Source: Pseudobdellovibrionaceae bacterium
GTDB lineage: Bacteria; Bdellovibrionota; Bdellovibrionia; Bdellovibrionales; UBA1609
NCBI GenBank assembly: GCA_023954155.1
Contig: JAMLIO010000002.1
Location: 62,001-126,000, forward strand
Reading direction: 5' to 3'
DNA length: 64,000 nucleotides
Below, piece after piece: positions 20,402-21,676 of this stretch. Made by a program: the position numbers and the translations under genes. Position 1 is the first letter of the stretch. Every line of letters begins with the position of its first letter. The notes under the pieces were generated by a model. It had not been told where the DNA came from. It did no database searches and was given only the letters and a program-made list of their open reading frames with translations.

Positions 20402-20635
20402 TTATTTTAAATCACTAAGGGCTGCGCCATAGTTGATATGTAAAACTTGGTTATCAATCACCAGAGCAGGAACAGATTTGATTCCAAGGTCTTCGGCCTC
20501 AGCTAGATGGGCTTTGTCTTTACCCAAATCCACCACCTGTAGATCAATATTCTTGCGATCAATCATATTCAGGACTGAATTTTCTGCAGACACACAAACT
20601 GTGCAACCAGCATGATAAAAAACGGCTTTTTTCAT
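20402..20635 (-). CDS. Thioredoxin/glutaredoxin-like small redox protein
   Basis: A 77-residue thioredoxin-fold protein. The active site CTVC follows the first strand (AVFYHAGCTVC), and the cis-proline motif is SVPALVI. Such proteins reduce disulfides or carry thiol signals in the cytoplasm; there is no signal peptide. AAAGGAG precedes the ATG. It is divergent from the MarR gene, and a TTAGGA-N-TCCTAA palindrome lies 26 nt upstream of its start. This points to control by that regulator. Confidence 0.8.
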   Translation of the reverse strand: MKKAVFYHAGCTVCVSAENSVLNMIDRKNIDLQVVDLGKDKAHLAEAEDLGIKSVPALVIDNQVLHINYGAALSDLK

Positions 20636-20660
20636 TATATTCTCCTTTGTTGGTTTATAA

Positions 20661-20673
20661 TTAGGACTCCTAA
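20661..20673. promoter_or_regulatory. Operator-like palindrome upstream of the thioredoxin-like gene
   Basis: TTAGGA-C-TCCTAA is a perfect 13-bp palindrome. On the minus strand it overlaps the predicted start site of the thioredoxin-like gene (-35 TTTTCA, 18-nt spacer, -10 TACATA). The same sequence with central A recurs at 20759-20771, upstream of marR. The pair is best read as binding sites for the MarR protein. Confidence 0.7.
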
Positions 20674-20725
20674 CTATGTATCCTGTGTAAATATTATTTG
20701 AAAAGTAATAACTATATGCGACATC

Positions 20726-20771
20726 TTGAAAAGATCGAGGGGGTGCATTATATCCTAGTTAGGAATCCTAA
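20726..20771 (+). promoter_or_regulatory. marR promoter with overlapping palindromic operator
   Basis: TTGAAA (20726-20731), a 17-nt spacer and TATATC (20749-20754) form a sigma-70-type promoter. The palindrome TTAGGA-A-TCCTAA (20759-20771) covers its expected start site near 20761. Binding there would block marR transcription, so autoregulation is inferred. Confidence 0.7.
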
Positions 20772-20801
20772 TATTCCTGAAATGATGTAGACGGAGAGAC
20801 C

Positions 20802-21422
20802 ATGGCTAAGTCAAAACTAAATACAAAACCAGATCGGCTTAACGAGAAGGTTTTGACGGGGCTTGCAAAAATTGGTCAAGCCTTGCGCGCCGTCGAGCAA
20901 AAACGATCTTTTGATGAGCAACTTTCTCCCACACAGGCACAAGTTTTGGTTTTGATGACTCAGGGTGTGTCCATGCCATCTGAAATCGCCAGACGCCTAG
21001 CTGTGAGCCGCGCCAGTCTCAGTGATTCTTTGTCGTCTTTAGTGGATAAAGGTTTAATTCGTAAACGTGTAGATCCACAAGATTCAAGGTTTACAATCTT
21101 AGAACTCACGGCAAAAGGAAAAAAGCGTTCTTTAGCTATAGCCAAATGGCCAGAAGATTTAATGCAATCGGTGAATGAACTTACTGAGCTTGAGAAGGCT
21201 GGACTTATACGGACTCTTTCTAAATTTATTATTGAAATGCAAGACAGAGGTTTGATCTCTGTCCCTGCTATGTGTGCTAGCTGTAAGTTTTTTCGACCTT
21301 ATGCTCATCCTGGTTCGGCTGAGCCTCACCACTGCGATTATGTAAACGCCTCATTTGCAGACAAGGACTTACGCCTAGATTGCAACGAATACGAGCCATC
21401 TGCCATTAAACATAATCTGTGA
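20802..21422 (+). CDS. MarR-family transcription regulator with a cysteine-rich C-terminal tail
   Basis: A 206-residue protein. Residues about 20-145 are a MarR winged helix-turn-helix (MPSEIARRLAVSRASLSDSLSSLVDKGLIRKRVDPQDSR, the recognition helix and wing). The tail (about 155-200) has CASC, then further cysteines in the spacing C-x2-C-x16-C-x15-C, with a nearby HH pair; this could bind zinc or an iron-sulfur cluster, or form disulfides. Ordinary MarR proteins are about 150 residues and lack this tail. GGAGAG precedes the ATG. Divergent neighbour is the thioredoxin-like gene, suggesting redox or metal sensing (inference). Confidence 0.85.
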   Translation: MAKSKLNTKPDRLNEKVLTGLAKIGQALRAVEQKRSFDEQLSPTQAQVLVLMTQGVSMPSEIARRLAVSRASLSDSLSSLVDKGLIRKRVDPQDSRFTILELTAKGKKRSLAIAKWPEDLMQSVNELTELEKAGLIRTLSKFIIEMQDRGLISVPAMCASCKFFRPYAHPGSAEPHHCDYVNASFADKDLRLDCNEYEPSAIKHNL

Positions 21423-21529: not shown

Positions 21530-21676
21530 ATGTTCACAAAAACTTTAACCATTAAAGAAATTAGTAACATGTCTACAAACGAGTTAAGACATTTGGCAAA
21601 AGAATTTGCCATAGAAAATAGTGAGAAGTTGGAAAGACCCGAGCTGGTTCAAAGACTTCTCCTCCTCGGTAAATAA
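21530..21676 (+). CDS. 48-residue Rho N-terminal-domain-like small protein
   Basis: A short frame with AAGGAG 7 nt before the ATG. The sequence (MFTKTLTIKEISNMSTNELRHLAKEFAI... ELVQRLLLLGK) matches the helical SAP-like N-terminal domain of transcription terminator Rho (pattern L..LA.E..I...ekL.r.eLv). It contains only that domain and no ATPase. A longer in-frame start at 21419 overlaps marR and has no ribosome site. The function is unknown; a small nucleic-acid-binding or Rho-modulating role is only a guess. A long hairpin follows at 21703. Confidence 0.6.
   Translation: MFTKTLTIKEISNMSTNELRHLAKEFAIENSEKLERPELVQRLLLLGK

Follow-up and report, generated by a model that had tools for sequence, protein, structure and literature searches.

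The MarR-family regulator and the thioredoxin-like gene that lie divergently in the 64,000-nt stretch of Pseudobdellovibrionaceae DNA analysed here (the window) probably form a local, autoregulated stress switch, in which a metal or Fe-S centre in the four-cysteine tail of the regulator would react with oxidants or reactive nitrogen species. Two palindromes between the genes are the predicted operators. The relevant features are the following.

20402..20635, minus strand: gene for a thioredoxin-like protein of 77 aa with a CTVC motif (open reading frame; Pfam Thioredoxin_3).
20661-20673: operator 1, TTAGGACTCCTAA, centred 32 nt before the trx start (predicted site, conserved in relatives).
20726..20754, plus strand: possible marR promoter TTGAAA-17-TATATC (seen in the sequence; weak, and not listed by the promoter scan).
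20759-20771: operator 2, TTAGGAATCCTAA, centred 37 nt before the marR start (predicted site).
20802..21422, plus strand: gene for a MarR-family repressor of 206 aa (open reading frame; Pfam MarR_2; MarR fold).
21273..21395, plus strand: C-terminal tail with C158, C161, C178 and C194 (alignments; no Pfam family; pLDDT).

Both 13-bp TTAGGA-N-TCCTAA palindromes had been predicted at these positions, and both are exact and correctly located, 98 bp apart from centre to centre. Rather than many unrelated matches, a motif scan of the 2.44-Mb genome gave two exact copies, both here, a result in favour of the original prediction. The reversed control pattern gave none. When one mismatch was allowed, five further palindromes were found elsewhere in the genome compared with eight for the control, which is no excess. 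With two mismatches the window contains 4 sites versus 3.88 expected; since this is the chance level, only exact or near-exact copies are meaningful. When the window was simulated 100 times with a Markov model, twin palindromes at most 150 bp apart never arose and exact TTAGGANTCCTAA occurred once. A scan of 47 genomes of the family found the exact palindrome in three, with two copies only in this genome. Doublet operators 16-17 bp apart, in comparison with the 98-bp pair of the window, were seen in cyanobacteria (L062:371-400, L069:1925-1953, L074:2170-2198 and L087:1862-1890).

The hexamers proposed for the marR promoter are present as described, TTGAAA at 20726-20731 and TATATC at 20749-20754 with a spacer of 17 nt, and are a weak match. 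The transcription start predicted from them is at about 20761, within operator 2. A promoter scan did not include this pair in its list and found no promoter for trx. Because of the weak marR match and the lack of a trx promoter in the scan, the proposal that each palindrome covers a start site is a plausible one for marR but unproven for trx.

The reading of the divergent gene as a CTVC thioredoxin-like protein was borne out by a score of 30.9 bits against Thioredoxin_3 (cut-off 24.8) and by the presence of the CTVC motif. The protein missed the cut-off of TIGR00412, the model of the MTH895/ArsE thioredoxin subfamily (28 versus 62 bits). A homologue in a relative (L016/L008) is 71% identical and has the same position and the same operator. 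No redoxin was found elsewhere in the genome of the window. In another genome (G061; L112:1492-2651) the thioredoxin-like gene and a redoxin gene lie next to an HxlR-type regulator in place of MarR; the cassette is the same and the regulator differs. Within the order, the MarR protein was found in 3 of 140 genomes (E <= 1e-12) and the thioredoxin-like protein in 3 of 138 (E <= 1e-8), which suggests patchy inheritance of both.

The body of the regulator is an ordinary MarR fold: it scored 39.7 bits against PF12802 (MarR_2; cut-off 27), and the best Foldseek matches to its model were MarR proteins. Beyond it lies the predicted tail C-x2-C-x16-C-x15-C, which we confirmed, with cysteines at 158, 161, 178 and 194 and no other cysteine in the protein. 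These four residues are invariant in an alignment of 73 rows, although the invariance of the first three is partly by construction, as they are included in the two search patterns. F164 and H176 are also invariant in the 73 rows, and H177 nearly so. The fourth cysteine, which lies outside the search patterns, was found in 80/80 proteins (the best 80 of 394 relatives), and 61 of these 80 have no cysteine beyond the four. A plasmid search that used no pattern returned 35 records, and the six tailed MarR proteins fetched from it (L009, L010, L011, L014, L120 and L121) all carry the four cysteines.

The tail matched no Pfam family and, among PDB sequences, nothing better than E 0.05; ferritin matches at E 0.05 and above were taken as chance. 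In a PDB search with the full profile, the match never extended past profile position 153 of 220 in the 60 listed of 125 chains. A HiPIP-like fold was considered on account of the CxxC-F and the spacing and was rejected, since hhalign against 12 HiPIPs gave 2% probability over 12 columns with only the CxxC in common. AlphaFold2 modelled the full protein with a pLDDT of 90.3 overall, 85 at residues 151-160 and 92-94 at residues 161-200. Modelled alone, the tail reached a poor 54.8, so that a confident model of it depends on the presence of the MarR body. Positions 21530-21676 of the window, which follow marR on its strand, encode a 48-aa protein whose match to SAP/Rho_N-like sequences is weak.

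Relatives of the regulator were collected by scanning a single genome for each species, which gave 394 proteins, and the best 80 were retained for locus counts. Some of these 80 are near-duplicates (L020 and L022 are identical, and the contigs of L015 and L016, judging by their matching lengths, are apparently those of L007 and L008), so that effective numbers are smaller. The best 80 of 394 span Cyanobacteriota, Pseudomonadota, Acidobacteriota, Planctomycetota, Actinomycetota, Nitrospirota, Armatimonadota, Gemmatimonadota, Chloroflexota, Deinococcota and more phyla. In a tree the window MarR groups with two Bdellovibrionota rows (support 100/100), and two Actinomycetota are the neighbours of this clade (99/86). 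The 35 plasmid records, obtained by tblastn, include Ensifer, Paraburkholderia, Nostoc and Deinococcus. MarR proteins of Pseudomonas, Lelliottia, Vibrio, Phaeobacter and Thermus have a tail with a shorter loop, C-x2-C-x11-C-x15-C or nearly so, and tblastn with the Pseudomonas protein found tailed MarR proteins of Deinococcus (E 2e-7) and Shinella (E 7e-6). As judged from sequence comparison, tail and operator together define what appears to be a widespread family, which was beyond the reach of the original prediction.

Neighbouring genes were identified by iterated profile searches within flanks of at most 3 kb, many of which are cut by contig ends; the seeds were chosen after inspection of the neighbours, and the counts are raw. 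Among the 80 loci (best 80 of 394), protoglobin was found at 27, an AhpC/TSA-type redoxin at 22, a thioredoxin-like protein at 19, glutamine amidotransferase at 13, globin at 10, Tpx at 6, MOSC at 5, TM_HPP at 4 and AurF at 1. A family of apparently secreted proteins, about 250 aa long and matched by neither Pfam nor NCBIfam, occurs at 19 (for example L054:978-1775), and a universal-stress-protein seed found nothing in the 80 loci. At least one of the ten recurrent families is present at 68 of the best 80 loci and none at 12, the latter count speaking against the proposed switch; a redox enzyme is present at 36, a globin or protoglobin at 36 and both at 15.

Several cyanobacteria and Calidithermus have an operon that starts with the operator and includes marR as a later gene, as in protoglobin-tpx-marR (L035), globin-HPP-marR (L087) and protoglobin-marR (L089). 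A Nostoc plasmid carries MOSC, Trx, tpx, marR, an AurF-type oxygenase and globin; exact operators lie ahead of marR and between trx and tpx. L008 has NnrS and Rrf2 genes next to it. On the Thermus thermophilus plasmid pTT27 (L116:2492-3531) a short-loop tailed MarR lies beside cytochrome P460, with TAGGAATCCCA, one mismatch from the core, 23 nt before the P460 gene; the P460 family is tied to hydroxylamine and NO chemistry. The short-loop tailed MarR of Phaeobacter lies beside MOSC. In an Acidobacteria MAG, MarR and protoglobin share one ORF of 436 aa with an operator 12 nt upstream (L064:2953-4263), which could be a true fusion or an effect of assembly or stop loss.

We propose that a MarR dimer would bind each TTAGGA-N-TCCTAA and block both marR and the divergent thioredoxin-like gene; repression is expected rather than activation because the sites lie over or just after the promoter. 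The tail, directly after the dimerisation helix, would hold a metal or iron-sulfur centre, and we consider it quite likely to be a Cys4 site of one of these kinds. The centre may react with oxidants or with reactive nitrogen species (NO, peroxynitrite, hydroxylamine), and there are good grounds for thinking that the signal belongs to one of these two groups. The reacted centre would then alter the dimer, leading to release of the DNA and synthesis of redox or haem defence proteins. The small redox- or metal-sensing circuit of the original prediction is supported: such a circuit fits the invariant four cysteines and the redoxin, Trx, Tpx, globin and protoglobin neighbours. As candidate inducers, reactive nitrogen species are no worse than thiol oxidants, and the company of globin, protoglobin, NnrS, P460 and HPP tilts the family towards reactive nitrogen. 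The window itself, where the thioredoxin-like gene is the only target, is neutral between the two.

The strongest competitor, to which we nevertheless give a rather low probability, is a Zn(Cys)4 thiol switch, in which oxidants such as HOCl, disulfide stress or electrophiles oxidise the cysteines, eject the zinc and derepress thiol-repair genes. Thiol-repair neighbours (Trx at 19, redoxin at 22 and Tpx at 6 of the 80 loci), the four invariant cysteines and the CTVC thioredoxin of the window itself all accord with it. However, globin and protoglobin taken together are as common as the redox enzymes (36/80 each), and these, like the NnrS, P460 and HPP genes at some loci, suit reactive nitrogen better. 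An unlikely alternative is that the tail has a structural role, as a (Zn) stabiliser, and that a small ligand bound in the pocket typical of MarR proteins acts as the signal. The ordinary fold of the body, and a tail model that needs this body to be confident, speak for it. Ligand-sensing MarR proteins usually control efflux or catabolic genes, though, and the ten recurrent neighbour families include neither.

Conservation of the operator identifies the window MarR as, very probably, the protein that recognises the palindromes. The exact 11-mer core, TAGGANTCCTA, lies between -200 and +60 of the marR start at 37 of the best 80 loci, compared with 0/80 for the reversed core and 0.05/80 expected from shuffles. 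There are 31 exact 13-mers across 26 of these loci and 49 sites with at most one mismatch across 39, while the reversed 13-mer gave no exact match and one with a single mismatch. A site of either grade is present anywhere in the locus at 57/80. No recognisable site was found at 23 of the best 80 loci, most of which have nothing, and this counts against the proposed switch; in L079 and L092 TTCGGAGTCCGAA may be an alternative site. In 67 collected sites conservation reaches beyond the core used for picking sites, notably to a T at -9 with an A at +9 (88%), which puts the true operator at about 19-21 bp.

The exact 13-mer was counted in 16 genomes that we chose from those behind the 80 loci, and is present in 10 of them in 14 copies, 11 at the marR locus and the other three all in one cyanobacterium (G219). 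Across 19 genomes (these 16 plus G000, G056 and G124) the 11-mer occurs in 36 copies, 20 of them at the marR locus, and the reversed control in 80; in 12 of the 19 every copy is at the marR locus. The predicted regulon is thus a single locus, against which stand G222, with no exact copy, and G219 and G221, with none at the locus. Conservation across phyla shows that this putative operator goes with this MarR family. That the palindromes belong to another regulator and are linked to this MarR incidentally is very improbable: the pairing rests on comparative genomics and 23/80 marR loci have no site, but in 12/19 genomes, over several phyla, all copies of the core are at the marR locus.

OhrR and SarZ act in peroxide defence and have their reactive, sensing cysteine near the N-terminus, whereas the window MarR has no cysteine outside the tail. 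These one-cysteine MarR proteins are described as redox sensors (PMC4500134). The closest precedent in mode of action is ArnR of Corynebacterium, a winged-helix repressor of hmp whose C-terminal cysteine domain, placed like the tail after the dimerisation helix, binds [4Fe-4S], and which NO releases from DNA (PMC12343034). ArnR differs in having three cysteines (179, 193 and 223) and a larger sensory domain, compared with four at other spacing in the window MarR, which scored 16.9 bits against the NCBIfam ArnR model (cut-off 400). ChlR of cyanobacteria is likewise a MarR-family protein with cysteines, a 135-aa activator with an O2-sensitive [4Fe-4S], the N-terminal cysteines C18 and C25 and the motif TTMCC-N3/4-GGWAA (PMC4500134, PMC13421787). 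At that length ChlR is too short for such a C-terminal tail, and membership of the window MarR was rejected on cysteine position and motif, since the window protein has no cysteine before 158 and its putative operator is TTAGGA-N-TCCTAA. The tailed MarR is a variant distinct from ChlR and ArnR. The zinc regulators AdcR and ZitR are among the top matches to the MarR body by structure and by profile, but the tail of the window MarR is not covered in the solved chains among the matches listed, and the window MarR fell under the cut-off of NCBIfam AdcR (41.7 versus 175 bits). PADLOC matches were generic HTH and were set aside.

MarR proteins of Pseudomonas aeruginosa and Lelliottia (L012:4325-5832 and L013:4317-5921) are divergent from the same thioredoxin-like family and have the related short-loop tail. 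They differ in their palindrome, GTATCG-N3-CGATAC, in a loop that lacks HHC, and in their operon partners, Trx followed by DUF2024 and a Rho-inhibitor (ROF) gene, which are unlike those of the window. The P. aeruginosa MarR beside Trx-DUF2024-ROF is presumably locus PA0942. MarR and Trx of this type also occur on many Enterobacter plasmids. In the openly licensed PMC literature we found no account of the operator, tail or MarR family of the window, and of the seven papers there that contain the operator strings none concerns a bacterial MarR, judging by title.

We put forward more tentatively that these proteins may be a class of reactive-nitrogen sensor that is undescribed and almost pan-bacterial. 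In it a MarR body would be joined to a Cys4 Fe-S domain at the C-terminus and would read one TTAGGA-N-TCCTAA code across many phyla, each copy governing its own locus only, while the defence module (protoglobin, globin, redoxin, Trx, P460, HPP, NnrS) is swapped. If the proposed switch is right, the tail would be a sensor domain for which Pfam has no model, and an operator code would have been kept over many phyla for a single-locus switch. The operator would then let the regulon be read in any genome, and the switch would give a physiological handle on bacterial protoglobins and several unnamed redox proteins.
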